Shown here piece by piece: positions 39,924-53,529 of a stretch of DNA of 58,671 nucleotides (the stretch's first letter is position 1; each line of letters begins with the position of its first letter). Location of the stretch: NCBI GenBank assembly GCA_016124795.1, contig WGNB01000065.1:1-58671 (forward strand), in the 5' to 3' direction. Both the position numbers and the translations under genes were made by a program. Below the pieces are notes generated by a model, which saw only the letters and a program-made list of their open reading frames with translations, searched no databases and was not told the origin of the DNA. This DNA is from Rhodopseudomonas sp. (GTDB taxonomy: Bacteria; Pseudomonadota; Alphaproteobacteria; Rhizobiales; Xanthobacteraceae).

Positions 39924-40379
39924 ATGAACCCGACTTTTAAGACCTCAACATTGCTGCGGTCCACTCTGGCCGCGATCGTTTGCACCGCCGCCGTCGGACT
40001 GGCCGGCCCGTCGATGGCCGCTGTGGTCAATCTGAAGGCCAATCTGTCGGCCGCCAGCGAGGTGCCGGCCAATGCCAGCAAAGGCACCGGTTCGGTCACC
40101 GCGACCTTCGACACCGCCAGCAAGAAGCTGACCTATAAAGGCACCTACAAGGATCTCTCTGGCCCGGCGACCGCTGCCCATTTCCACACCGGCGAACCCG
40201 GCAAGAACGGCGGCGTCGCGGTGCCGATATTCGGCGGCGCCAACGCCAAGTCGCCGTTCTCGGGCGAAGCGACCCTGACCGACGCGCAGGCCAGCGACCT
40301 CCTGGCCGGCAAGATGTATGTCAACATCCACACCGCGGCGAACAAGGCCGGCGAAATCCGCGGCCAGGTCACCAAGTAA
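39924..40379 (+). CDS. Secreted CHRD-domain protein
   Basis: The product has 151 residues with GGAGG before the ATG. A signal peptide ends near residue 33 (IVCTAAVGLAGPSMAA). The CHRD fold follows: LSAASEVPANASKGTGSVTA near 42, GPATAAHFHTGEPGKNGGVA near 80 and a closing MYVNIHTAANKAGEIRGQ. CHRD domains occur in animal chordin and in many secreted bacterial proteins without a known biochemical function. It has its own terminator. Confidence 0.9.
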   Translation: MNPTFKTSTLLRSTLAAIVCTAAVGLAGPSMAAVVNLKANLSAASEVPANASKGTGSVTATFDTASKKLTYKGTYKDLSGPATAAHFHTGEPGKNGGVAVPIFGGANAKSPFSGEATLTDAQASDLLAGKMYVNIHTAANKAGEIRGQVTK

Positions 40380-40418
40380 AGCCCAGTCAACGGTCGCCAG
40401 CCGACCGGTTCCAATCCG

Positions 40419-40450
40419 ACGCCCGCCGGCCCCACACCGGCGGGCGTTTT
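40419..40450 (+). terminator. Rho-independent terminator after the CHRD gene
   Basis: An 11-bp perfect stem pairs 40419-40429 with 40437-40447 around a 7-base loop and runs into TTTT (40447-40450). Confidence 0.88.
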
Positions 40451-40575
40451 GCGTCGCTCATCAACGGTTAAAAGCGACCCGGTTGCGCTTTGCGTCCCGG
40501 CGCGACGCGCATTATCGTGCCGGCCAACACGACACAGACTCGCAGATAAACCTGCACTTGCGACGAGGAATCCCC

Positions 40576-41763
40576 ATGGCGGCCAGCAACGGCTCATCGG
40601 CACCCATTCTCATCTCCGGCGGCGGGCTCGGTGGCCTGATCGCCGCCCATGCGCTTGCCCTCAAAGGCATTCCCGTCCGCCTGTTCGAGCAGGCCACCGA
40701 ATTCGGTGAAGTCGGCGCCGGCATCCAGCTCGGGCCCAATATTTTCCGGGCGCTCGAAAAGGTCGGCCTCAAGGACGCGGTGCTGGCCGATGCCCACATC
40801 CCGCCGGCGCAGGAGATGCGTAACGCGCTATCCGGCGCGCTGGTCACCAACATGCCGCTCGGCAAGGCTTTCATGGACCGGTTCGGCGGCCAGCCTTATG
40901 CGGTGACCCATCGCGCCGACATTCACGGCACCTACCTGAAGGCCTGCCGCGCCAATCCGTTGATTACGCTGGAGACCAGCCGCCGCGTCGAAAGTTATGT
41001 CGACCATGGCGATGGCGTCAGCATCACGCTCAACAATGGCGAAACGGTCAAGGGCCGCGCTTTGGTCGCGGCCGACGGCATGTGGTCGAAGATCCGCGAA
41101 CGCATCATCGGCGACGGCAAGCCGCGCGTCTCGGGCCATATCGCCTATCGCGGCGTGCTCAAGCGCAGCGAAGTGCCGGAAGACCTTTGGCGTCCGGACG
41201 TGGTGCTCTGGGCCGGCCCGCGCACGCACTTCGTGCATTACCCGTTGCGGCGCGGCGAACTCTACAATCTGGTCGCCGTGTTCCACTCCGACCATTACGA
41301 GGAAGGCTGGGACGCCGAAGGCAGCAAGGACCTGCTGTGGAAGCATTTCGAAGGTCAGGTGCCGCAAGTCACGCGCATGCTCGAGCGCATCAACACCTGG
41401 AAAATGTGGGTGCTGTGCGACCGGGAGCCGGTCAAGAACTGGTCGCAGGGCAACGTCACGCTGCTGGGCGACGCCGCCCACCCGATGCTGCAATATCTCG
41501 CGCAAGGTGCCGGCATGGCGACCGAGGACGCCATCGATCTCGCCGAAAAGGTCGGCGCGCAACCCGACAATATCCCGGCCGCTTTCAAGGCTTATGAACA
41601 GGCGCGCTATCTACGCACGGGCCGGGTGCAGATCATGGCCCGGGTCTATGGCGAGTTCTATCACGCGCGCGGCGTCACCGCCGAACTGCGCGACATCGCC
41701 GTCGGCGGCCGCACCGAAGAACAGGCGCGCGAAGGCATCGCCTGGCTTTATGGCGGCGGCTAA
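40576..41763 (+). CDS. 3-Hydroxybenzoate 6-monooxygenase-like FAD hydroxylase
   Basis: The product has 395 residues from the ATG at 40576 (GAGGAA site). FAD motifs: ILISGGGLGGLIAAHALALK, then FGEVGAGIQLGPNIFRAL near 49, the DG motif VAADGMWSKIRERI and VTLLGDAAHPMLQYLAQGAG near 295. The block YAVTHRADIHGTYLKAC and the overall order closely follow 3-hydroxybenzoate 6-hydroxylases, which make gentisate with NADH and oxygen. Salicylate hydroxylase is the alternative. No gentisate dioxygenase lies nearby. Confidence 0.82.
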   Translation: MAASNGSSAPILISGGGLGGLIAAHALALKGIPVRLFEQATEFGEVGAGIQLGPNIFRALEKVGLKDAVLADAHIPPAQEMRNALSGALVTNMPLGKAFMDRFGGQPYAVTHRADIHGTYLKACRANPLITLETSRRVESYVDHGDGVSITLNNGETVKGRALVAADGMWSKIRERIIGDGKPRVSGHIAYRGVLKRSEVPEDLWRPDVVLWAGPRTHFVHYPLRRGELYNLVAVFHSDHYEEGWDAEGSKDLLWKHFEGQVPQVTRMLERINTWKMWVLCDREPVKNWSQGNVTLLGDAAHPMLQYLAQGAGMATEDAIDLAEKVGAQPDNIPAAFKAYEQARYLRTGRVQIMARVYGEFYHARGVTAELRDIAVGGRTEEQAREGIAWLYGGG

Positions 41764-41856: not shown

Positions 41857-42330
41857 TCAAATCGATTTCAGGTCCCGGACCTCGGCCAGTTTCAGCAACC
41901 GCGCCGCCTGTCCGTCGTAATAGACGAAGCGCAGTTTGCGCCGCCGCGTCACCATCTGCGCCGGCAACGGATCGTAACGCAGGCTGCCGCCGCCGAGATG
42001 CGGCATCAGCGAACCGACATCGGTGACGGCCTCGCTCTCGACCCGCAGCAACACCAGTTTGGTGCCGGCCGCGTCCACCGCCTCGCTCGGAATATGCGCG
42101 AGTCGCAGGAAACTCGCCGGATCGCTGGTCGAGGCAAAGCTTTCGGCAAAGGCGGCTTCGACCAGATCGAGGTCGAGTTCGCCATGCTGATGATCGTCGT
42201 GATCATGGCTATGGGTCTTGTGCGGCGTCTGCCACTGAACGGTCCGCAGCGGCGTGACATGGTTGTGGCCGACGCCGCCGGTCGCGCCGTCGCCGTGATG
42301 ATGGTGGTGATGGTCGTGTCCCTGATGCAT
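41857..42330 (-). CDS. His-rich protein, candidate metal chaperone of the guanidine operon
   Basis: The product has 157 residues; 16 of the first 50 are His, including a run of six at 7-12 and HKTHSHDHDDHQHG near residue 37. The remaining 100 residues form a compact domain (SFLRLAHIPSEAVDAAGTKL; RRRKLRFVYYDGQAARLLKL) that I do not recognise. The ATG lies four bases past the ureohydrolase stop, and its GGAGG overlaps that stop, so translation is coupled. His-rich tails of this kind store or deliver nickel in HypB, UreE and SlyD. I infer metal supply to the neighbouring hydrolase. Confidence 0.78.
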   Translation of the reverse strand: MHQGHDHHHHHHGDGATGGVGHNHVTPLRTVQWQTPHKTHSHDHDDHQHGELDLDLVEAAFAESFASTSDPASFLRLAHIPSEAVDAAGTKLVLLRVESEAVTDVGSLMPHLGGGSLRYDPLPAQMVTRRRKLRFVYYDGQAARLLKLAEVRDLKSI

Positions 42331-42334
42331 GACA

Positions 42335-43546
42335 TTAACCTCCGAAGTTCACGGGCTTGTCGATGATGTGCTTGTGGCTGCCGAGCTTGCCATGCGCGAC
42401 CATCGAGCCGAGCGCCTCGACCACGACGCGCACGCCGACCAGCGCGGTAATGTCCGAGGTGTCGTAAGGCGGCGAGACCTCGACCACCTCCAGCCCGCAC
42501 AGGCCTTCGGCGGCGACCAGCCCGAGGATCTTCAACGCCTCGCGCGGCAGGAAACCGCCCGGCTCCGGCCAGCCCGTCCCCGGCACGAAGCCGCAATCGA
42601 GCGAGTCGACGTCGAACGAAATGTAGACGGCGTCGGCATCCTTCCACGCCAGTTCGAGCGCGATCTCGGCGGTCTTTTCCAGCCCGATCCGCTCGATATC
42701 GGCAATCGTCAGCACATTGGTGTTGCGCTCGCGGCCGACCTGCACGCCGGCGCGCGGCACCTGCCAGCCGCCGATGCCGAGTTGCACCAGATTGGTTGGC
42801 TTGACGTTCGGCATGTTGGTTGCCCAGAACCAGGGCGTCGTATGCATCCGCTCGTCGAGATCCTTTTCCTGGATATCGATATGACGATCGAAATGGATGA
42901 TGCCGATGCGCTTCGACGTGCATTCGGCGATGCCGCGCACGCAAGGGAAGCCGATCGAGTGATCGCCGCCGAGCATCACCGGCAGCGCCCCCGACGAGAA
43001 CACATGACTGACGCCACGGGTGATCTGGTCGAAGCTCTTCTCCAGATTGCCGGGAATGGTGAACACGTCACCGGCGTCGCATAGCGTCATCTGTTCGCGC
43101 AGGTCGACGCCCATCTCGTAGTTATATGGCGTATAGAGCGCGGAGATGCGACGGATGCCCTGCGGCCCAAAGCGGGTGCCGGGCCGATAGGTCGTGCCGC
43201 TGTCAAAAGGGATGCCCAGCACGGCCGCGTCGTATTTGGCGACGTCGCGCACGTTCTCGACATAGGGCGCCTTCAGGAAGGTGTTGATGCCGGCGAAATG
43301 CGGCAGCTCACCGCGCGAGAAGGTCGGGATCGACTTGTCGGTCAGCGAATCCGCGCCGGGCAGCCCCATGTCGAGCGCCCATTTCTGCTCCTTGCGCCAG
43401 CCGTCTTCCGACAATTTGCCTTCGGCGTCGAGCGCCTGCCAGCCCTGCGAATTGAGCTTGTCGAAATCCGGATGATGGCGCCGCGACCGTCGCGGCGCGG
43501 GAAACAGGCCGGCCCGGTGCGAGCGGCGACTGAAAGGATCACGCAT
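42335..43546 (-). CDS. Ureohydrolase-family enzyme, probable guanidine hydrolase (GdmH-like)
   Basis: The product has 403 residues, longer than agmatinase. The six dimetal ligands of the fold are present: His196 (MLGGDHSIGF), Asp220, His222 and Asp224 (HFDRHIDIQEKDLDERMHTT), Asp313 and Asp315 (SFDVDSLDCGFVPGTGWPEP). The DRHID in place of the usual DAHTD, the Trp326 in PGTGW and the N-terminal extension fit the Ni-dependent guanidine hydrolase branch (Synechocystis Sll1077 type), as far as I recall that family. It would split guanidine to ammonia and urea. A guanidine riboswitch heads its operon. The start has AAGGAG. Agmatinase or another guanidino-acid hydrolase is the alternative. Confidence 0.82.
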   Translation of the reverse strand: MRDPFSRRSHRAGLFPAPRRSRRHHPDFDKLNSQGWQALDAEGKLSEDGWRKEQKWALDMGLPGADSLTDKSIPTFSRGELPHFAGINTFLKAPYVENVRDVAKYDAAVLGIPFDSGTTYRPGTRFGPQGIRRISALYTPYNYEMGVDLREQMTLCDAGDVFTIPGNLEKSFDQITRGVSHVFSSGALPVMLGGDHSIGFPCVRGIAECTSKRIGIIHFDRHIDIQEKDLDERMHTTPWFWATNMPNVKPTNLVQLGIGGWQVPRAGVQVGRERNTNVLTIADIERIGLEKTAEIALELAWKDADAVYISFDVDSLDCGFVPGTGWPEPGGFLPREALKILGLVAAEGLCGLEVVEVSPPYDTSDITALVGVRVVVEALGSMVAHGKLGSHKHIIDKPVNFGG

Positions 43547-43600
43547 GAAGGCACTCCTTGTTGTTGTTTTCTATAGCAGCGGGCGCAGCGCGCGACCGTC

Positions 43601-44962
43601 CTAGAACAGATGGCTGTAGCGTTCCACTTCCCATGGGCTGACCGTGAGGTGATAGGATTCCCATTCCATCGTCTTGTACTTGATGAACTCGTCGCGCAAC
43701 TCGCGCCCGAGCACCGTCTCCATCAGCGGATCGGCGGCAAAGGCCGCGACCGCCTCCTGCAAGGTCTGCGGCAGGAAATCGATACCGCGCTGCCGCCGCT
43801 CGGCCTCGGAGATCGCATAGAGATTATCCTCGTTCGGCTTGCCGGGATCGATCTTTTCCCGAATGCCTTCGAGCCCGGCGGCCAGGGCGAGCGCAGCGGC
43901 CAGATAGGGATTGACCGCGCCGTCGGCGTTGCGCGACTCGCAACGCCCCCCGCCCATCGGCACCCGCACCGAATTGGTGCGGTTGTTCGAGCCGTAGGAG
44001 TTGAACACCGGCGCCCAGGTGAAGTAGCTCATCGCGCCTTGCCGCACGAGACGCTTGTAGCTGTTCACCGTCGGCGCGAAGGCGGCGCACAAGGCCCGGC
44101 CGTGTTTGAGGATGCCGCCGATGAAATGATAGCCGGTTTGCGACAGGCCGAGACCATGCGGGTCTTCGGCAGGCTCTCGCGCGAAGACGTTCCGGCCGCT
44201 GGCCAGGTCGTAAAGCGACATGTTGAAATGCGCGCCATTGCCGGTCTTGTCGGCGAAGGGCTTGGGCATCATCGTCGCCAGCAGCCCCTCTTCCTTGGCG
44301 TAATGCTTGGTCATGGTGCGGAAGAAGATCAGCCGGTCGCACATCGTCAGCGCGTCGGCATATTTGAAATCGAACTCGTATTGGCCGTTGGCGTCCTCGT
44401 GATCGAATGAATAGAGGTCCCAGCCGAGATCGTTGATGCAGGTGGCGACCTTGTCGAGCCAGGTGAAGTTGTCGAGGAACGGCTGCAAGTCGTAACAGGG
44501 CTTGACCAGCTTGTCGTTCGGGTTGGGCACCGACAGCGTTCCATCGGCATTCTGCCGCAACACGAACACTTCGCATTCGATGCCGAGATTGAAACCGAAT
44601 CCCATCGCGGCGGCCTGCGCCAGCACGTTCTTGAGCGCGACGCGGGTATTGAGCGGATAGGGCTCGCCGCGAAACGTATTGTCCGCCGGCATCCAGGCCA
44701 GTTTCGGTTCCCAGGGCAGCTGGATGATATGATCGAGGTCGGGCACCGACGCGATTTCGTCGTCGTTGGGCGCCTGACCCAGGCCGTCCAGCGCGTAGCC
44801 GGTATACATCTCCGATCCGTGCGCCATGTGGCCGAGATGATCGAGCGGCACCACCTTGGCCTTCGGCACGCCATGAATGTCGACATAGGCGCCGATGCAG
44901 TACTTCACGCCCTTGGCGCGCAAGGCATCCTGCGTCTGCCGGATCTTTTCGTCGCTGACCAT
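43601..44962 (-). CDS. glnT: Glutamine synthetase, GlnT (type III)-like
   Basis: The product has 453 residues from the ATG at 44960-44962. The N-terminal beta-grasp includes [19 protein letters not shown] near 25. Catalytic motifs follow: [45 protein letters not shown] and [17 protein letters not shown] with [10 protein letters not shown]. The sequence is closer to GlnT and gamma-glutamylamide synthetases than to housekeeping GlnA. In this operon it could assimilate the ammonia set free from guanidine (inference); gamma-glutamylation of another amine is the alternative. 54 bp separate it from the ureohydrolase gene. Confidence 0.85.
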
Positions 44963-44984
44963 CGCTACCCGTAACCTTTCCGCG

Positions 44985-45746
44985 CTATTCGACCGCTTCG
45001 AAATAGGACCGATCGAGCGGCGGCGTTTCCCGCAAGCCACGCGCGATCAGTCCGCTCAAATCCTCGACCATCCACTCGAACCAGCGCTGTCCCTTGGACG
45101 CGGTCGCGGCGCTCGGCAGTCCGGTGACGCCGTTGCGGCTGGTCCGGTTGACCGGATGGGCGAAGACCAGACCCTGGGTGCGGTCGGGATCGTCGGCATC
45201 GGCCATTTGATCGGGCCGCACCATTTCGGGCGCGACCGCCAGCATCAGCGAGGTCTCGGCGTCATTGGCATGCCAGTCGCGGGCGTCGGCGAAATGGAAA
45301 TCGCGCACGCGCGGGCTCAGTTCCGCCGAATTGAACAGCGCCACCATCAGATCGTCATGCGCCGCACGCAACGTCTCCAGCGCGCAGCGCAGCGGCGCGG
45401 CATTGGTGACATGGCTGTTGACGATGAACAGCCGCCGCACGCCGGAGTGATAGGCGCCCTCACCCAGTTCGGTGACCAGCGCGATCAAGGTCGCCGGCTG
45501 AACCGGAATGGTGCCCGGCCAGCGCCGGCTGTGTCCCAGCGAACAGCCATAAGGCAGCACCGGCAACATCGGCACCTGGGTCCGCGCCGCCACGGCCGCG
45601 CACAGGCGCTCGGCCAGCACGCTGTCCATGCCGCAGCCCATATGCGGGCCGTGCTGCTCGGTCGCGCCGACCGGCAGGATCGCGGCGTGCGACACCGCGG
45701 CAAGGTCGCCGGGCAGTTCAGCCCATGTGCGTTCGGCCCACAGCAT
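44985..45746 (-). CDS. Creatininase-family amidohydrolase
   Basis: The product has 253 residues from the ATG at 45744-45746, two bases past the ATPase stop (a TTG at 45752 would overlap it). Family motifs: [20 protein letters not shown] near 22 with Glu and His ligands, [11 protein letters not shown] (NSHVTN where NGHGGN is usual) near 110, and [17 protein letters not shown] near 150. The family hydrolyses cyclic or linear amides such as creatinine, some formylated intermediates, or mycofactocin peptides. Here it might act on a guanidine-derived or guanidine-yielding compound (inference). The altered NGHGGN block makes the substrate uncertain. Confidence 0.83.
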
Positions 45747-45748
45747 GG

Positions 45749-46684
45749 TCAATCGATGTCGTCCGCGATGTCGGTCATCCGCGCCACCATCGAATAGGTC
45801 CCGCTGTCCTCCTCGTCCGGCGCCTCGCCTTTATGGATGAGCTCTTCCAGCCGGGCTTTGGTCGCGAGGAATTCCGGCGAAATGAATTGCGCGCTGCTGC
45901 GTGGATGCGGCACCGGCACCTCGATCAGTTCCTGCACCTGACCCGGATGCGCCGACAGCACCAGAATGCGGTCGGCCAGGAAAATCGCCTCGTCGAGATC
46001 GTGGGTGATGAAGACGATGGTGATGTCGATCTTGCGCCAGATTTCGAGGAGATGCGCCTGCATGCGGCTTCGGGTCTGGGCATCGAGCGCGCCGAAGGGT
46101 TCATCCATCAACAGGATACGCGGCTGGTTGGCGAGCGCGCGCACGATCGCGACCCGTTGTTTCATGCCGCCGGATAACTGGTTGGGATAGGCGTCGGCGA
46201 ACTTTTCCAGACCGATCAATTGCAGCCATTGCAGCGCCTGCTTCTCGGCCTCGTAGGCGCCGCTGCCATTGACCTCGAGCCCGAACATGACGTTCTTCTT
46301 GACCGTCAGCCACGGAAACAAAGTGTAGCCCTGAAACACCATGCCACGGTCGCGGCCCGGCTCGCTCACCGGCTCGCCCAGCAGCAATACGTCGCCGGAG
46401 GTGTGTTCTTCCAGCCCGGCCAGAATCCGGACCAAGGTCGACTTGCCGCAGCCCGACGGCCCGACCACGCACAAGAACTCGCGGCGGTGGGTCTCGAAAC
46501 TGATGTCGCTCAGCGCCAATGTCTCGCGCTGGCCACTGCTGAACACCTTGTTGAGCCCGTCGACCTTGAGGATCACCTCGCGCTGTTTCAGGCGCTCGAA
46601 ACGCGCGCGAACGGCATCCGACTGGTCGAGATAAGACGGCAGCGCGGGCAGACCGACGGGCTTGTTCATGGCGGTGTCACTCAT
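45749..46684 (-). CDS. ABC transporter ATPase, nitrate/sulfonate/taurine type
   Basis: The product has 311 residues. Walker [22 protein letters not shown]-loop [16 protein letters not shown], signature [17 protein letters not shown], Walker [17 protein letters not shown] and H-loop [14 protein letters not shown] are all intact. It belongs with SsuB/TauB. Its ATG overlaps the permease stop (ATGA at 46681-46684). The acidic C-terminal extension ([12 protein letters not shown]) is unusual. With the adjacent permease and binding protein it makes a complete importer, probably for guanidine or a guanidino compound given the riboswitch. Confidence 0.93.
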
Positions 46685-47778
46685 GCGCTCTTGTCCAGCG
46701 ATCGCTCCCAGGGAAACAGGCGCCGGCCAAGCAGCGCCAGCAGCATGTCGGTGCCGAGACCGATGATGCCGATCATCATGATCGCGGCGTAGACATTGGC
46801 GAAATGCTGATACCGCGCCTGCTGGGTGATGAACCAGGTGATGCCGGTCGTCGTGCCGATCAGTTCGGCGACGATCAGATAGGTCCAGGCCCAGCCGAGC
46901 AGAATGCGCTGGTCGCGATAGAGGTCCGGCAGGATGCCGGGGATGACCACCCGCCACAGCAACTGGAAACGCTTGGTGCCAAGCGTCAACGCCGCTTCCA
47001 CCAGACCGACGTCGAGCTTGCGCGTGGTATTGGCGATGATCAGCACCTGCTGGAAGAACGTGCCGATGACGATGATTGTGATTTTCGGCCCGTCATAGAT
47101 GCCGAGGATCGCCACCGCCAACGCGCCGAAGGCCGGCGCCGGCAGATAGCGGAAGAACTCGACGAAGGGTTCGGTGAGACGGGCAAAGGCCGCATAAGTG
47201 CCGCACAGAATGCCGATCGGCACGCCGAAGATCGACGAGATCACGAAGCCCCAGAAAATCACCTGGATCGAGTGCCAGAGACTCTGATGCAGCCAGGGCT
47301 GGTCCTTGGTCGCCGGCGGCGTGACGAACGAGGTATAGAACGCCGCGGCGACCTCGTGCGGCGCCGGCAAATAGATCGGGTTCGAGGCATAGCCCTGCGG
47401 CGGTGCCTTGTGATCGGCCTTCGCCTCGGCGACGACGTCATCGAACGCCGCCTTGTTCATGCGCATCCCGACCTGAAGGTAATCGGTCGCGCCGGGATCG
47501 GTGATCGCGATCTGCGGATGCCAGACGTAAGGCACATAAGAGACCACGCACCAGGCCGCGATCGGCAGCACGAAGGACAGCATGCCGAGCAGGAGCCGGG
47601 CGCGTGGCGTCAGCGGCCGTAACACCTGGAACCAACCCTTGCGATTGCGGGCCTTGCCCGCCCCGGTCGGACGCAGCGTGGCACCGTCGCGCTTCTCCAA
47701 CAGAGGCGCGGCGTCGCCGGGGCCAACGACTCCCACAGGCTCCGACCGCATCGCGTTATCGCTGTCCGTCAGCGCCAT
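46681..47778 (-). CDS. ABC transporter permease, nitrate/sulfonate/taurine type
   Basis: The product has 365 residues from the ATG at 47776-47778, overlapping the oxygenase gene by 23 bp. A cytosolic N-terminus of about 60 residues and a first helix ([20 protein letters not shown]) precede a periplasmic insert (residues 90-150) and the SsuC-like core with the EAA loop ([20 protein letters not shown] near 280). The insert between helix 1 and the core is longer than in SsuC. It should pair with the downstream ATPase. Confidence 0.92.
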
Positions 47779-48799
47779 GGCGCGCCTCCTGTCCGAACGA
47801 CGACAATGCCATTGTTGTCTCCGGTAACTGAATTTCGCCGCGCGCCAGCCGTTCCTTCTGATAGCGGAAGCTCTGCGCGGTCTGGGCAAACAGATGTTCG
47901 CCGGCAATCAGCCCTGCCCGCGCCGGCCGCGCCGGGGTCACGAAGCGTGGCAGCGGGCTCACCCGGGTGTGGTAGTCGACGGCAAAGAACAGCGGGAACG
48001 AGTAGCGTTCCTCCTTCACCGGGCGGACCCGATGCGAGGTCGCGATGAATTCGCCATTGGTCCAGACCTCCATCATGTCGCCGATATTGATGATCAACGC
48101 GCCGGGGACCGGCGGTGCGTCGACCCACTGCCCGGCGCTATTGAGCACTTCCAGGCCGGGCGCGGTGGAGCGCAGCAAGGTCACGCATTCGTAGTCGCTG
48201 TGCGAACCGATGCCCATCGCGTCGCCAGCCTCGGGATTGTACGGGTAATGAATGAGGCGTAGCTGGCTTGGCGGCTTTTGCAGATAAGGCTCGAAGAACT
48301 CCGGCGCTTCACCGAGCGCCATTGCAAAGCCGCGCATGACGGCGCGGCCGGCGGCGAAGGCGGCGCGGTAATAGGTCATCACCGCCGTGTCGAAGCCTTC
48401 CAGCGGCGGCCACTGGTTCGGCCCCAGCAAGGGATTGCCGCCCAGATAGTCGGCATCGTCCACCGGCAGATCGCGCCCCAGATCGAAGGCCTCCTTGCGG
48501 TCCTTCGAGCCAACCGAGAACACCTCCTCGCCTTCCGGCACGTAGCCGCGGTGGTTACGGGAGCGCCCGATATAGACCTGCATCTTCTCCGACATCGGCA
48601 GCGCGAAGAACCGCTGGCTCGCCGCCAGCAGACCGTCGAAGGCGGCATCGGGAATGCCGTGCCCGGTCACATAGCAAAAGCCGACCTCGCGCGCCGCACG
48701 GCCCAGTTGGTCCGCGGCCGCGGTGGCGGCGTCGCACTGTCCGCTCATCAGCGCGCTGATGTCGACGATCGGCAGCGCGGTGAAGGCAGCCTTGCTCAT
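47756..48799 (-). CDS. 2-Oxoglutarate/Fe(II)-dependent oxygenase (isopenicillin-N-synthase-like)
   Basis: The product has 347 residues from the ATG at 48797-48799, in ATGA overlap with the upstream gene. The DIOX_N region starts ALPIVDISALM and has GFCYVTGHGIPDAAFDGLLA near 40. The iron triad is His200, Asp202 (GSHSDYECVTLL) and His256 (ATSHRVRP), and Arg265-Tyr-Ser267 binds 2-oxoglutarate. The block RNHRGYVPEGEEV is shared with the group that holds the ethylene-forming enzyme and homoarginine hydroxylases, some of which release guanidine. It may hydroxylate a guanidino compound so that guanidine is released (inference). Confidence 0.87.
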   Translation of the reverse strand: MSKAAFTALPIVDISALMSGQCDAATAAADQLGRAAREVGFCYVTGHGIPDAAFDGLLAASQRFFALPMSEKMQVYIGRSRNHRGYVPEGEEVFSVGSKDRKEAFDLGRDLPVDDADYLGGNPLLGPNQWPPLEGFDTAVMTYYRAAFAAGRAVMRGFAMALGEAPEFFEPYLQKPPSQLRLIHYPYNPEAGDAMGIGSHSDYECVTLLRSTAPGLEVLNSAGQWVDAPPVPGALIINIGDMMEVWTNGEFIATSHRVRPVKEERYSFPLFFAVDYHTRVSPLPRFVTPARPARAGLIAGEHLFAQTAQSFRYQKERLARGEIQLPETTMALSSFGQEARHGADGQR

Positions 48800-49656
48800 C
48801 GCGACGCCCCTGGCCATTCGACAAGGGTCCCGCGCCGGCCGCCCTCACCGCCATGCGCGCCAAACCACAGCGCCAGCGGCGCGTCGGGCGCGCTCTCGAA
48901 GGCGGCAATCCGCCAGGTTCGTTTGAACGGGGCACCGTCGGACGTGAGGTCATCGACCGACAAGTAGCCGTTCACGTCATCCAGCAAAGGCGACAGCGCC
49001 GCTCCTTCCCGAAAACCATGACTGGACCGCGCGATGCGCCAGTCGCCACCATCTTCGCTGCAATGGCGGTGCCCAAATGAAATCTCGCAGTCGAACAGGT
49101 TCTGAGCGGCCGCGAGCGAGGCCGCGTCTTCGATCAGTTGCTCGAGCGTGCTGCCGGCCGGCAGCGGCGTCGCGCGACCGCGCGCATAGATGAAAGCGTC
49201 GCCGGCGACGACGAGACAGCCGGGGACGCCGCTATCGGCGGTCAACGACAATGCCACGACCTGACGCGACCCGGCTTCGCGCAGCCAATGCTCGATATAA
49301 GGCTGTTCAATGCCGCGTTCGATCAAGACGCCATCCTCGAACGCCAGCGATCCGCGGTCGGCAATGCCCGTATCCGGCCGATAATCGAAATCCCGATGCC
49401 AGCAGGCGACCGACCGCATGACATCAAGTGTGCCGAAAAAACCCTCCTGTCGCGCCATCGCCCGTAACCGGTCCCTGTCGAGATCGCGCAGGCAGGCGAT
49501 CTCGGCATCGCTCGGCCGGCCGGCGGGAATACGCAGGTCGGCGTAGCGATGCGGGCCCTGAAGCCAGAACACCTCCGTATCGGTGTCGGTTCGGCCGTCG
49601 GGCCAGGCGATCGATCGCCGCCGCCAGAGTCCGGTCAGATCTTGAAGTCCAATCAT
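48796..49656 (-). CDS. Beta-barrel (HRI1/lipocalin-like) protein of the guanidine operon
   Basis: The product has 286 residues from the ATG at 49654-49656. The start LTGLWRRRSIAWPDG and VFWLQGPHRYADLRIPAGRP resemble the paired beta-barrels of the fungal HRI1 family, which has lipocalin-like halves. The second half repeats the pattern (DWRIARSSHGFREGA; FKRTWRIAAFESAPDAPL). No signal peptide and no catalytic motif is obvious. It follows the binding-protein gene by 111 bp and overlaps the oxygenase start by 4 bp. A small-ligand binding role is possible; the function is unknown. Confidence 0.72.
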   Translation of the reverse strand: MIGLQDLTGLWRRRSIAWPDGRTDTDTEVFWLQGPHRYADLRIPAGRPSDAEIACLRDLDRDRLRAMARQEGFFGTLDVMRSVACWHRDFDYRPDTGIADRGSLAFEDGVLIERGIEQPYIEHWLREAGSRQVVALSLTADSGVPGCLVVAGDAFIYARGRATPLPAGSTLEQLIEDAASLAAAQNLFDCEISFGHRHCSEDGGDWRIARSSHGFREGAALSPLLDDVNGYLSVDDLTSDGAPFKRTWRIAAFESAPDAPLALWFGAHGGEGGRRGTLVEWPGASR

Positions 49657-49767
49657 GCTCTCGACCGCGCTGTGAAGTGAGCCATCGGGCCGCCGATCCG
49701 GCGCAGGTCCCGGGTCCGGCCTCAGCCGAACCCGGAAACCCACGTCGCAGGGGGAAACCCGGTTTGC

Positions 49768-50754
49768 CTATTTCGCGGCTCCGGCAACGAAAGACGGATC
49801 GATGTAGGAATCGACGTCTTCGTGCTTCTTGTAGACGGCGTTCTCGACGTTGAAGTCGTCGGAGATCTTGGTCGAGCCGTACATCGACGCCAGCCCCTCG
49901 GCCTTCTTGAACACCGCGAGATTGGCCTTCAGGTCGAGCAGCTTGGTGCCGCCGAGCAAGGGCTTGTAGGCCTCGGGCGTCAGACCGACGCGCGCCGACA
50001 TCATCTTCAGCGCATCCGGCTGGGTCTTGGGATCGTTGATGTAGCTCACGACCTTGCCCCAGACCTTGATCAGCTTGATCCACTCGGCCTTGTTGGCGGC
50101 GAGCTTGGCCGGCGCCACCGCAAGCACGTCATAGATCAGACCCGGCGACTGATGCGAGGTCCAGACCGGCCGCGATCCCGGCACGCCCTTCATCGCCTGT
50201 CCGGAAATCGGCTGCCAGCAGGCGACCGCGTCGACCTGACCGGAAGCGAGCACCTGCGGCAACTCGTTGGTCTTCGAGTTGATCAAGGTGACGTCCTTCG
50301 GGTTCATGCCGGTTTTCTTGAAGGCGTCCATCAGCAACAGATGATCGACAAGACCGATCTCGACGCCGACCTTCTTGCCCTTCAGCGCCTTGATGTCCTT
50401 GATGCCCGGCTTGGCGACGACCATGTCGTTGCCGTTCGAATAGTCGGTCGCCATGATGATGACACCCTTGCCGCCACCGGAACCGGTCACGAGCGTGTCG
50501 CCATTGGTCATCAGGTTGGCGTCGATCTTGCCGGCGGCGAAGGCATCCATCGACGCCGAATAGTCGAACCATTGAAATTTGACGTCGAGGCCGGCGTCCT
50601 TCAGCCAGCCTTTGTCGATCGCCACCTGCCAGGCGACCCAACCAGGCCAATCGCTATACCCAATCGTCAACGGCGCAGCGGCACTGGGCCGCACGCCGAT
50701 CATGGCAAACAAGGCGAGGCTTAGAATGAATCCGGCGCTAAATTTGCGAACCAT
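49768..50754 (-). CDS. ABC substrate-binding protein (NMT1/SsuA-like), first gene of the guanidine operon
   Basis: The product has 328 residues. A signal peptide ends near residue 26 (FILSLALFAMIGVRPSAAAP). The SsuA/NMT1 fold follows: LTIGYSDWPGWVAWQVAIDK near 29, AGKIDANLMTNGDTLVTGSG near 73 and LKGKKVGVEIGLVDHLLLMD near 123. It should capture the substrate in the periplasm for the permease and ATPase downstream. The ATG is preceded by CAGGAGATCGCG, and its leader carries a guanidine-I aptamer, so guanidine probably controls its synthesis. Confidence 0.92.
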   Translation of the reverse strand: MVRKFSAGFILSLALFAMIGVRPSAAAPLTIGYSDWPGWVAWQVAIDKGWLKDAGLDVKFQWFDYSASMDAFAAGKIDANLMTNGDTLVTGSGGGKGVIIMATDYSNGNDMVVAKPGIKDIKALKGKKVGVEIGLVDHLLLMDAFKKTGMNPKDVTLINSKTNELPQVLASGQVDAVACWQPISGQAMKGVPGSRPVWTSHQSPGLIYDVLAVAPAKLAANKAEWIKLIKVWGKVVSYINDPKTQPDALKMMSARVGLTPEAYKPLLGGTKLLDLKANLAVFKKAEGLASMYGSTKISDDFNVENAVYKKHEDVDSYIDPSFVAGAAK

Positions 50755-50758
50755 CGCG

Positions 50759-50802
50759 ATCTCCTGGGTTGCGTTTTACAACGTGCTGGAGATGCAACAC
50801 CC
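50759..50802 (-). promoter_or_regulatory. Possible ribosome-site sequestering hairpins (expression platform)
   Basis: On the minus strand the GGAGAT of the ribosome-binding site (50764-50759) can pair with ATCTCC (50793-50788). A competing stem pairs GGGTGTTGC (50802-50794) with GCAACCC (50772-50766). The two overlap, so the structure could switch between open and closed ribosome access. This is by-eye pairing without folding energies. Confidence 0.4.
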
Positions 50803-50962
50803 GCGGGCCCGCCCCCTGCCGAGCCGTGGCTGCCGCCACGTCCCAGCGAGACAGAGATCAAAAGTGTTAGCGAAAAACGATGCGAGCGATGCACGTCCAG
50901 TCCTCATGGATAGCTCACCGCAGACTGGCGCATAGAACCTCGTCGCCAACCACGGCTACTGA

Positions 50963-51067
50963 GGTCTCCCGGGCTTTTATCCCGCCGTGCACCCGGACTG
51001 ACATGTTCCGGGCGGTGGCTCTCGGACCTGCGTTCCCCGCAAAGCGGAAACCGGAACCCTAGCCACC
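50963..51067 (-). ncRNA. Guanidine-I (ykkC subtype 1) riboswitch aptamer
   Basis: Read on the minus strand, all class hallmarks are in order. P1 pairs GGTGGCT (51067-51061) with AGCCACC (51020-51014). CTAGGGTTCCGG (51062-51051) follows P1, then a P2 hairpin, then GGTCCGAGAGC just before the P1 3' strand. After P3 the conserved core ACGGCGGGATAAAAGCCC and GGGAGA is reached (50989-50965). Guanidine-I RNAs bind guanidinium and usually switch on guanidine transport and breakdown genes. The next gene, 209 bp downstream, is an ABC binding protein heading nine genes with a GdmH-like enzyme, which supports subtype 1 over the ppGpp, PRPP and nucleotide subtypes. Confidence 0.94.
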
Positions 51068-51242
51068 AACTCGATTTATTATCAGCAAGGATTGTGCCAG
51101 CGAAAAAACACGCTGGTGGCGTCGTTGCCGCACCGAACAAGCCTAATCGGCGGGCAGAATGGCACGATAGAAGGCAGACCGTCGTACCGATCGGCGAAGC
51201 CCTCGAATATCACATGCCGCGCAGGCACTCTAAACTCTTCAA

Positions 51243-51298: not shown

Positions 51299-52468
51299 TC
51301 AGGCCGCCTTGTTGGTCTGCGGGTTGGACGCCGGCCGATCGAGATCGGCATTCCAGGCGTCGTAGCCATAAAGCCAACTTGTGTCGTGATCGCCGCCCTG
51401 CATCCAGGTATTGGCGCTCGAGATTGCCTGCACCATCGAGGTGCGCGGTTTGCGGTGGGCTTCGTAGCGCTTGAACGCGGCTTCGATGTCGGCCGCGCCG
51501 ACATCCTTGAGGCAACGCGCCAGGATCGCCGAATCCTCGATCGACGTCGCCGCGCCTTGCGCCATGTAAGGCGTCATCGGGTGCGCGGAATCGCCGAGCA
51601 GCGCTACCCGGCCCTTGCTCCAGGTCGGCAGCGGCTCACGTTCCAGGATCGCCCATTTATGACAGTCCGGGCAGGCATTGAGCACATTGCGCACATCCTG
51701 ATGGAAGCCGGCATAGGCTTCGCGCAATTCGTTGACGTCGCCCTTGGCCGACCAGGATTCCTTGGTCATCCAGCCGGCGTCTTCCGGCACACTGGTGACG
51801 AAGTACAATTCGCTTTTGTCGCGCGCGGTGTAATAGATCACGATATGGCGATCCTTGCCCCACCATTTGGTGCGCGACGGACCGATATCGAAACCGCCCA
51901 TCAGATCGGCGCGGAACACCGCGCGATAGGCAATGCGTCCCTTGTGCACCGGCGCATCCGGCCCGACGACGATGTCACGCACCACCGAATGCACGCCGTC
52001 GGCGCCGATCACGGCATCGGCCGTCGCTGTGGTGCCGTCGGCAAATTGAAGCGTCACCGGTCCGCCGTTCTGCTCCAGGCCGGTCAGCTTCTTGTTGAGA
52101 TGGATAATGTCGCTCGGCACCACGGAGGCCAGCGCATCATGCAGGTCGGCGCGATGCATGCATAGATAGGGCGCGCCATAGAGCGCCTCCGGCATCGGCA
52201 GTTCGCGCATGATCTCGCCGGTATCGCCGACCCGGTTGAGATGCGAATAAGGCGCAAAGGCCACCTGGCGCAGCTTGTCCTCGACGCCGATGCCGCGCAG
52301 CACCTTCATCGAATTCGGCATCATCTGAATGCCGGCGCCGATCCGTCCGAACCGGCTCGCCTGCTCGTAGACCGCGACCTCGATGCCGACCTGTCGCAGT
52401 GTCGCGGCTACCGCAAGACCACCCATGCCAGCGCCGACGATTGCGATTTTCAATTTGTTATCACTCAT
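51299..52468 (-). CDS. NicC-like FAD monooxygenase (6-hydroxynicotinate 3-monooxygenase-like)
   Basis: The product has 389 residues. FAD motifs: KIAIVGAGMGGLAVAATLRQ at the N-terminus, DAVIGADGVHSVVRDIVVG near 152 and VALLGDSAHPMTPYMAQGA near 290. Marks shared with NicC are KWWGKDRHIVIYYTARDKSE near 200 and the C-terminal ISSANTWMQGGDHDTSWLYG. NicC decarboxylates and hydroxylates 6-hydroxynicotinate to 2,5-dihydroxypyridine. No other nic gene is nearby, so another heteroaromatic or hydroxybenzoate substrate is possible. Confidence 0.8.
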   Translation of the reverse strand: MSDNKLKIAIVGAGMGGLAVAATLRQVGIEVAVYEQASRFGRIGAGIQMMPNSMKVLRGIGVEDKLRQVAFAPYSHLNRVGDTGEIMRELPMPEALYGAPYLCMHRADLHDALASVVPSDIIHLNKKLTGLEQNGGPVTLQFADGTTATADAVIGADGVHSVVRDIVVGPDAPVHKGRIAYRAVFRADLMGGFDIGPSRTKWWGKDRHIVIYYTARDKSELYFVTSVPEDAGWMTKESWSAKGDVNELREAYAGFHQDVRNVLNACPDCHKWAILEREPLPTWSKGRVALLGDSAHPMTPYMAQGAATSIEDSAILARCLKDVGAADIEAAFKRYEAHRKPRTSMVQAISSANTWMQGGDHDTSWLYGYDAWNADLDRPASNPQTNKAA

Positions 52469-52533: not shown

Positions 52534-53529
52534 TTACTTCTTCGGAATGCCGGCCTTGTCGATGACGGCGCTCCACTTCGTGATGTCTTCCTTGAGCTGG
52601 GTCATCAGCTCCGCCGGGCTGCTGGCATGGGCTTCAACACCCAGCTTGGCGAATTGCTGCACCACATCGGGCATGGCCAGCACCTCGCGCATCGCCTTGT
52701 TCATGGTGTCGATGGCTTCCTGCGGCGTTCCCTTGGGCGCGAACACGCCGTTCCACGAGGTCACGACATAGCCCTTGATACCCGCCTCCTGAACCGTCGG
52801 CACGTCCGGCAGCAATTTCGACCGGGTCGGCGACGACGTGGCGAGAATGCGCAACTCACCGGCGGCCACCTGACCTTTCACCGCCGGCGGGAACTCGACC
52901 AGCAACTGCACATCGTTGCGCAGCAAGGCGACAACGATGTCAGGCGAGCGCTTGTAGGCAACGATCTGCACCTTGACGTCGGCCAACGATTTCAGCAATT
53001 CGGCGCCGAGGTTCTGCGTGCCGCCGACCGCGATCGTGCCGATATTGAGCTTGCCCGGATTGGCCTTGGCCGCCTTGATGAAATCGCCGAGCGTCTTGTA
53101 TTCCGATTTGGCGTTGACGACGAAGACCAGATCGAACTGGCCCAGCATCGACACCATCGCAAAATCGTTGACCGGATCGAACGGCAACTGCTTGAAAGCG
53201 CCGACGCTGATCGCGGTGCCGTTGGTCACCAGACCCATGGTATAGCCGTCCGGCGGCGCGGTCGTGACCGAGCGCGCGGCGTTGATGCCGCCCGGCCCCG
53301 GCATGTTCTCGATCACGACGCGCTGGCCGAGCTTGTCGGACAACTTGTCGGCCAGAATGCGCGAGGTCACGTCGGCCACGCCACCGGCGCCGAAAGGCAG
53401 AACGATCTTGACCGGCTTCTCCGGCCACTTCGCCTCAGCCGAACTCACGGGCGCCAGCGCCAGCAGCAAAGCCGCGGGCAGCCCAAGCAGCGCCGCGCGC
53501 CGCATACCGTCAAAAAGCCGTTTGGTCAT
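52534..53529 (-). CDS. TTT-system (Bug-family) substrate-binding protein, copy 1
   Basis: The product has 331 residues. A signal peptide ends near residue 32 (LLLALAPVSSAEA). The mature protein starts KWPEKPVKIVLPFGAGGVAD and has the Bug-family GQRVVIENMPGPGGINAARS near 68 and GYTMGLVTNGTAISVGAF. Family members bind carboxylates or aromatic acids for TctAB-type carriers; no TctA or TctB gene is here. It is very similar along its full length, without gaps, to the protein at 53913-54908. Confidence 0.9.
   Translation of the reverse strand: MTKRLFDGMRRAALLGLPAALLLALAPVSSAEAKWPEKPVKIVLPFGAGGVADVTSRILADKLSDKLGQRVVIENMPGPGGINAARSVTTAPPDGYTMGLVTNGTAISVGAFKQLPFDPVNDFAMVSMLGQFDLVFVVNAKSEYKTLGDFIKAAKANPGKLNIGTIAVGGTQNLGAELLKSLADVKVQIVAYKRSPDIVVALLRNDVQLLVEFPPAVKGQVAAGELRILATSSPTRSKLLPDVPTVQEAGIKGYVVTSWNGVFAPKGTPQEAIDTMNKAMREVLAMPDVVQQFAKLGVEAHASSPAELMTQLKEDITKWSAVIDKAGIPKK

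Follow-up and report, generated by a model that had tools for sequence, protein, structure and literature searches.

The contig WGNB01000065.1 of Rhodopseudomonas sp. (assembly GCA_016124795.1; 5.14 Mb in 76 contigs) was analysed over its entire length of 58,671 nucleotides, hereafter the window, with the focus on an operon on the minus strand that is led by a guanidine riboswitch. The aptamer, of the Guanidine-I type (50964–51073), is followed by nine genes on the same strand. In order, these encode an ATP-binding cassette (ABC) substrate-binding protein of the NMT1/SsuA type (SBP; 49768–50754), an HRI1-like protein (48796–49656), a 2-oxoglutarate (2OG)/Fe(II) oxygenase (47756–48799), an ABC permease (46681–47778), an ABC ATPase (45749–46684), a creatininase-family amidohydrolase (44985–45752; Pfam Creatininase, 229 bits), GlnT, which is a type III glutamine synthetase-like γ-glutamyl ligase (43601–44962, start codon uncertain; Pfam Gln-synt_C), a GdmH-type guanidine hydrolase (42335–43546; Pfam Arginase) and a His-rich protein with a conserved C-terminal domain (41857–42330). 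The junctions from the SBP gene to the His-rich gene, as given by the coordinates of the open reading frames (ORFs), are a gap of 111 bp, overlaps of 4, 23, 4 and 4 bp, and gaps of 22, 54 and 4 bp. An earlier note on this DNA had described an aptamer at 50963–51067 and nine minus-strand genes behind it, joined by 4 bp overlaps, one 23 bp overlap and short gaps of up to 111 bp; the ORF coordinates bear out the genes and agree with the junctions, and the aptamer ends are off by no more than six bases. A terminator-like hairpin (51276–51250) separates the aptamer from the upstream flavin adenine dinucleotide (FAD) monooxygenase gene, and the operon therefore probably forms its own transcription unit. 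Family membership, gene neighbourhoods and conserved residues are reported below as direct results, while the functions of all of the operon genes are deduced from sequence.

The covariance-model check that the earlier note had proposed gave a clear outcome. The aptamer matches the Rfam model RF00442 over its full length (51073–50964, minus strand; model positions 1–107) with 89.4 bits (E = 9.3e-15), above the gathering threshold of 63 bits, and is the sole Guanidine-I match across the 5.14 Mb genome. No Guanidine-II match was found in the window. Between the aptamer and the first gene, the leader scan recognized neither a sigma-70-type promoter nor an intrinsic terminator, and a 136-nucleotide stretch of the leader showed no greater folding stability than shuffled versions of it (z = 0.51).

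The second and third genes resemble a demethylase pair from Vreelandella boliviensis that was published in 2025, consisting of the methylguanidine hydroxylase MgdH and the N-(hydroxymethyl)guanidine lyase MgdL (PMC12508155). The 2OG oxygenase of the window is 58.7% identical to the V. boliviensis hydroxylase (VbMgdH) over 341 residues, contains the expected domains (Pfam DIOX_N and 2OG-FeII_Oxy) and falls into one clade with VbMgdH (support 95/97). It is thus most likely to be an MgdH-type methylguanidine hydroxylase. Residues His200, Asp202 and His256, which are invariant across nine sequences, are presumably the iron ligands.

The relationship of the HRI1-like protein to MgdL is more distant. 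Its match to the Pfam family HRI1 (E = 0.0096) is under the family cut-off; however, an alignment of the window protein with relatives from 11 of 14 related loci (L021, L024 and L033 were left out) matches VbMgdL with an hhalign E-value of 5.7e-28 over 203 columns. Asp40 and Arg42 align with the catalytic Asp49 and Arg51 of VbMgdL, and the D-x-R motif that they form is present in the window protein, in all 14 related loci and in VbMgdL. The structure model (predicted local distance difference test score of 89.7) is of the barrel type. The protein is therefore most likely to be an MgdL-type lyase. The best match of the model in the Protein Data Bank (PDB) is yeast Hri1 (YLR301w; 3rby, an entry titled uncharacterized), for which this relationship provides a possible enzymatic lead.

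MgdL relatives were found in 15 of the 397 genomes of the order. In the 14 loci besides the window, MgdH is close in six, divergent in two and absent from the stretch in six. The guanidine carboxylase pathway is encoded in five of these loci, GdmH in two (L027 and L028) and another ureohydrolase gene pair in a further two; a Guanidine-I riboswitch is present in six, two of which also have Guanidine-II. Judging from this gene content, demethylation appears to be coupled to carboxylation or, in the window, L027 and L028, to hydrolysis. In the loci with the other ureohydrolase pair (L021, 9629–14316; L022, 8312–12996), the MgdL relative lies directly behind the two ureohydrolase genes (32–34% to GdmH). 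Genes for a creatininase-family protein and an ABC importer belong to the same operon-like run, whereas MgdH is absent; these runs are perhaps operons of the dimethylguanidine-hydrolase type. The MgdL relative of genome G269 (L024, 9630–10378) is interrupted by a stop and extends over two frames; either the gene has decayed or the sequencing is at fault.

The ureohydrolase scores 539 bits against the solved guanidinases 7esr and 7oi1 and 529 bits against 9fek, compared with 169 bits for the next kind, the guanidinobutyrase 3nio. It is nearer to the solved guanidinases than to other ureohydrolases with the N-terminal region included (matched from residues 33 and 26 on), so that by homology it is a GdmH-type guanidine hydrolase, as previously claimed. 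Its predicted products are urea and ammonia (PMC12186494), and a urease alpha gene is present elsewhere in the genome. A simple Guanidine-I pattern was detected upstream of at least 29 of 45 gdmH genes, which is a lower bound because this pattern missed the Rfam match of L028. A Guanidine-I switch and GdmH are sufficient for the use of guanidine (PMC12186494), and GlnT passes a type III glutamate–ammonia ligase model. Both points would suit an operon for plain guanidine assimilation, with import, hydrolysis by GdmH and ammonia assimilation by GlnT, in which the 2OG oxygenase and the HRI1-like protein have nothing to do with methylguanidine. The membership of these two proteins in the MgdH and MgdL groups, the recurrence of such genes beside Gca or GdmH genes, the pocket changes in GlnT described below and the pairing of GlnT with a creatininase-family gene make this explanation highly improbable.

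Taken together, these results suggest that the locus is a guanidine-induced operon for the use of methylguanidine and guanidine as a nitrogen source, a reading to which we assign a probability of roughly 0.7. The ABC importer would bring in a guanidino compound. MgdH would hydroxylate the methyl group of methylguanidine using O2 and 2-oxoglutarate, as shown in print for its homologue, and together with MgdL would yield guanidine and formaldehyde. GdmH, a predicted nickel ureohydrolase, would convert the guanidine to urea and ammonia, with the urea processed further by the urease encoded elsewhere; for homologues these later steps, too, have been demonstrated in the literature. Guanidine binding to the aptamer would switch the operon on. 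The His-rich protein most likely holds nickel on its tail and helps to load GdmH, replacing chaperones of the HypA/HypB type. The earlier suggestion that guanidine could be released from a guanidino compound is supported as a possibility, although the compound itself had been missed; it is most likely to be methylguanidine because the second and third genes of the operon have MgdL and MgdH as their counterparts. The Guanidine-I switch of V. boliviensis did not bind methylguanidine within the tested range (PMC12508155), and the window lacks a match to Guanidine-II; induction by methylguanidine is therefore expected only once part of it has been demethylated.

A number of observations weigh against this interpretation. 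The direct identity between the window MgdL and VbMgdL is low (35.4% over 113 residues; 25% over the alignment). MgdL is not strictly tied to MgdH, which is lacking from six of the 14 stretches and is only divergent in two, and in L023 and L025 MgdL is located upstream of the switch with no MgdH seen. The leader scan and the shuffle test revealed no expression platform. The importer is unlike the kind that is usual in GdmH operons, and the imported substrate may therefore differ. Finally, the genome has a HypA gene elsewhere, beside an ORF that resembles HypB by eye; GdmH might use these instead, so that redundancy in the nickel supply is possible.

The importer was assigned from Pfam matches of the SBP (NMT1), the permease (BPD_transp_1) and the ATPase (ABC_tran), in line with the earlier note. 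Its identity to the importers of other GdmH operons is 27–32% for the SBP, 24–35% for the permease and 37–51% for the ATPase. The corresponding values for one related locus, L125, are 59, 64 and 69%, and the creatininase-family protein and GlnT are 74 and 79% identical to their counterparts there. Downstream of this module of importer, creatininase-family and glnT genes, L125 has a Guanidine-II riboswitch and the genes of the carboxylase pathway. Homologues of the creatininase-family protein (E up to 1e-40) were found in seven of 249 genomes. A glnT homologue lies near the creatininase-family gene in all seven loci besides the window: it is the immediate neighbour in six (about 45–79% identity), facing the opposite way in three of these, and in L128 it is one gene away and more distant (29–30%). 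The two genes are a recurring pair. Five of the seven genomes also have MgdL, two of the five being from one genus; co-occurrence probabilities depend on an assumption about the make-up of the 249-genome set and were not used as evidence. In L129 (4968–10290) genes for an amidase and an M24/creatinase-N protein adjoin the pair. The identification of the window protein as a true creatininase (creatinine amidohydrolase) was rejected, as it reaches 114.3 bits against the 235 bits required by the equivalog model TIGR04448 and is a member of the Pfam superfamily only.

GlnT exceeds the cut-off of the type III glutamate–ammonia ligase model TIGR03105 (652.8 versus 469.6 bits). The nearest solved chains are 9qur and 7cql, both glutamate–methylamine ligases; the latter is described as GmaS (PMC7948447) and carries the PDB name type III glutamate–ammonia ligase, so passing the model leaves the amine unfixed. 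Assimilation of ammonia, which the earlier note had attributed to the gene set, may or may not fall to GlnT. The amine-pocket residues of GmaS were taken from PMC7948447 and compared at positions 175, 177, 179, 186 and 188. GlnT retains Asp177, Glu179 and Glu186 and has Ser in place of Gln175 and Asp in place of Asn188, and thus departs from the GmaS pocket. The same two changes are found in six of the seven other creatininase-linked loci. The creatininase-family enzyme and GlnT probably go with this type of importer and act on a further amide or amine.

Alternatively, the main import may be another guanidino compound, for example an acylated or cyclic guanidine (a creatinine derivative would be one), or else an amine that becomes γ-glutamylated. 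This compound would first be handled by the creatininase-family enzyme and GlnT, with MgdH and MgdL treating methylguanidine formed en route and GdmH finishing the pathway. The importer, 59–69% identical to that of L125 and far less like those of other GdmH operons, is consistent with this alternative, as are the position of the L125 module, which has no MgdH or MgdL matches, ahead of the carboxylase pathway and its Guanidine-II riboswitch, the presence of MgdL in five of seven genomes and the published statement that methylguanidine arises from creatinine by abiotic decay (PMC12508155). However, the creatininase-family protein is far under the equivalog cut-off, the pair also occurs in L126–L131 without a guanidine riboswitch at the gathering level and the co-occurring genomes include two from a single genus. 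We consider this alternative to be possible but rather unlikely, and methylguanidine and guanidine remain the preferred substrates.

The last gene may bear on the nickel supply of the hydrolase. GdmH (E up to 1e-90) is encoded in 42 of the 397 genomes of the order, and in 40 of these a His-rich gene lies no more than about 0.5 kb downstream in the same orientation. Three more GdmH genomes from outside the order (in a phylum sample of 398) also have the His-rich gene, giving 43 of 45 alphaproteobacterial GdmH genomes; G833, G856 and G858, which were found via the His-rich profile, are excluded from this count. In the two exceptions, L092 and L112, GdmH itself has a His-rich N-terminal stretch, with 8 and 6 His residues per 20-residue window against 2–5 in 39 others (41 loci were counted; L085, L110, L111 and L113 were left out). 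A HupE/UreJ gene lies beside GdmH in both (by Pfam for L112), and HupE-like nickel-permease genes occur in the vicinity of GdmH in 15 of the 45 loci. No HypA match was found near GdmH in the 47 sequences scanned, although a divergent HypA could escape detection, and weak HypB-like matches (29–31%) occur near four GdmH loci; the reach of these scans is limited by the short loci L095, L099, L110, L113, L134, L136 and L137. The linkage in 43 of 45 genomes, the His-rich tail carried by GdmH in the two exceptional loci and the occurrence of HupE near 15 loci and of HypA near none suggest that the His-rich protein is most likely to be a nickel-delivery factor for GdmH. In line with such a role, Synechocystis GdmH requires accessory nickel-delivery proteins for activity (PMC12186494).

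The model of the His-rich protein comprises a low-confidence His-rich tail and a well modelled C-terminal domain, in which nine positions are invariant across 29 sequences (the window and 28 of 38 loci). None of these 29 members matches a Pfam family at E = 0.01, HypA and CobW/HypB included, and the protein is thus distinct from HypA/HypB-type chaperones at this level; no clear fold match was found either. Alternatively, the protein might merely store or buffer nickel (or zinc), with GdmH loaded by HypA/HypB or by free nickel. The variable length and His content of the tail, which is almost missing from the L103 and L108 ORFs (start codons uncertain), would fit a storage role, as would the presence of HypA in the genome and the lack of a fold match to a known chaperone. 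The folded (in the model) and conserved C-terminal domain, the close linkage to GdmH and the His-rich tail on GdmH itself in both exceptions argue against storage, which we regard as unlikely.

Two observations extend the picture of these genes. In L092 (7847–9076) and L112 (7176–8507) GdmH is 53% identical and has a His-rich N-terminus; the HupE-like gene follows it, and there is no separate His-rich gene. Away from GdmH, His-rich matches were restricted to a marginal one in the order (G347) and a remnant (G857) in a sample of 142 from the class. The remnant, of the C-terminal domain (L143, 7103–7351), is preceded by a gene for an ABC ATPase and by a permease-like ORF, in a 16 kb stretch with no GdmH match.

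The operon can be compared with four described systems. The carboxylase operon of V. boliviensis shares the Guanidine-I riboswitch, the ABC importer, MgdH and MgdL, but processes guanidine via Gca, CgdAB and AtzF with an internal Guanidine-II switch (PMC12508155), whereas the window would use GdmH, has the order mgdL–mgdH and adds the creatininase-family, GlnT and His-rich genes. The gdmH operon of Synechocystis likewise has a Guanidine-I riboswitch, an ABC importer and a nickel-dependent GdmH (PMC12186494); there the accessory nickel-delivery proteins are encoded, in contrast to the His-rich protein without a Pfam family in the window, which also has MgdH/MgdL, the creatininase-family enzyme and GlnT. 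The guanidinase locus of comammox Nitrospira shares the Guanidine-I riboswitch, a GdmH-type enzyme and the lack of adjoining HypA/HypB genes, but has an APC permease rather than an ABC importer; in the text available, no dedicated loading protein is reported and the mechanism of nickel loading is called unclear (PMC11410670). The metformin and dimethylguanidine hydrolase operons also pair nickel ureohydrolases that act on guanidine compounds with genes for nickel helpers, in that case HypA, HypB and HupE (PMC11399263). Those hydrolases have two subunits, and two such ureohydrolase genes accompany the MgdL relative in L021 and L022, unlike in the window.

The earlier note had regarded the combination with the 2OG oxygenase, creatininase-family, HRI1-like and His-rich genes as undescribed. 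This has to be narrowed, since the 2OG oxygenase and HRI1-like genes correspond to the described MgdH/MgdL pair and the His-rich gene accompanies this kind of GdmH almost without exception and is no loose extra; the full combination was nevertheless not found described in the open-licence literature. None of the demethylase pair, the hydrolase and the switch is new in itself. A search of open-licence papers did not find the combination of MgdH/MgdL with GdmH and the switch, the almost invariable His-rich partner and its fused counterpart, or the movable importer–creatininase–GlnT module. The operon would link the demethylation of methylguanidine with a guanidinase route that needs no ATP. For alphaproteobacteria it offers a candidate answer as to how guanidinases without adjoining HypA/HypB genes obtain nickel, a question left open for Nitrospira (PMC11410670), and it points to a further compound feeding guanidine pathways. 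More tentatively, and with slightly less than even confidence, we propose that the His-rich protein is the founding member of a novel class of nickel-insertion factors that serve GdmH guanidinases specifically. In alphaproteobacteria such factors would take the place of HypA/HypB, and in a few lineages only a His-rich tail on the enzyme itself would be left of them. On the same proposal, the creatininase-family/GlnT pair with its own importer would form an undescribed third entry into guanidine catabolism that can precede either GdmH or guanidine carboxylase.

The neighbours of the operon are two genes resembling FAD-dependent monooxygenases (51299–52468 and 52534–53529) on one side and a gene for a binding protein of the tripartite-transporter type (40318–41763) on the other, all named by eye.

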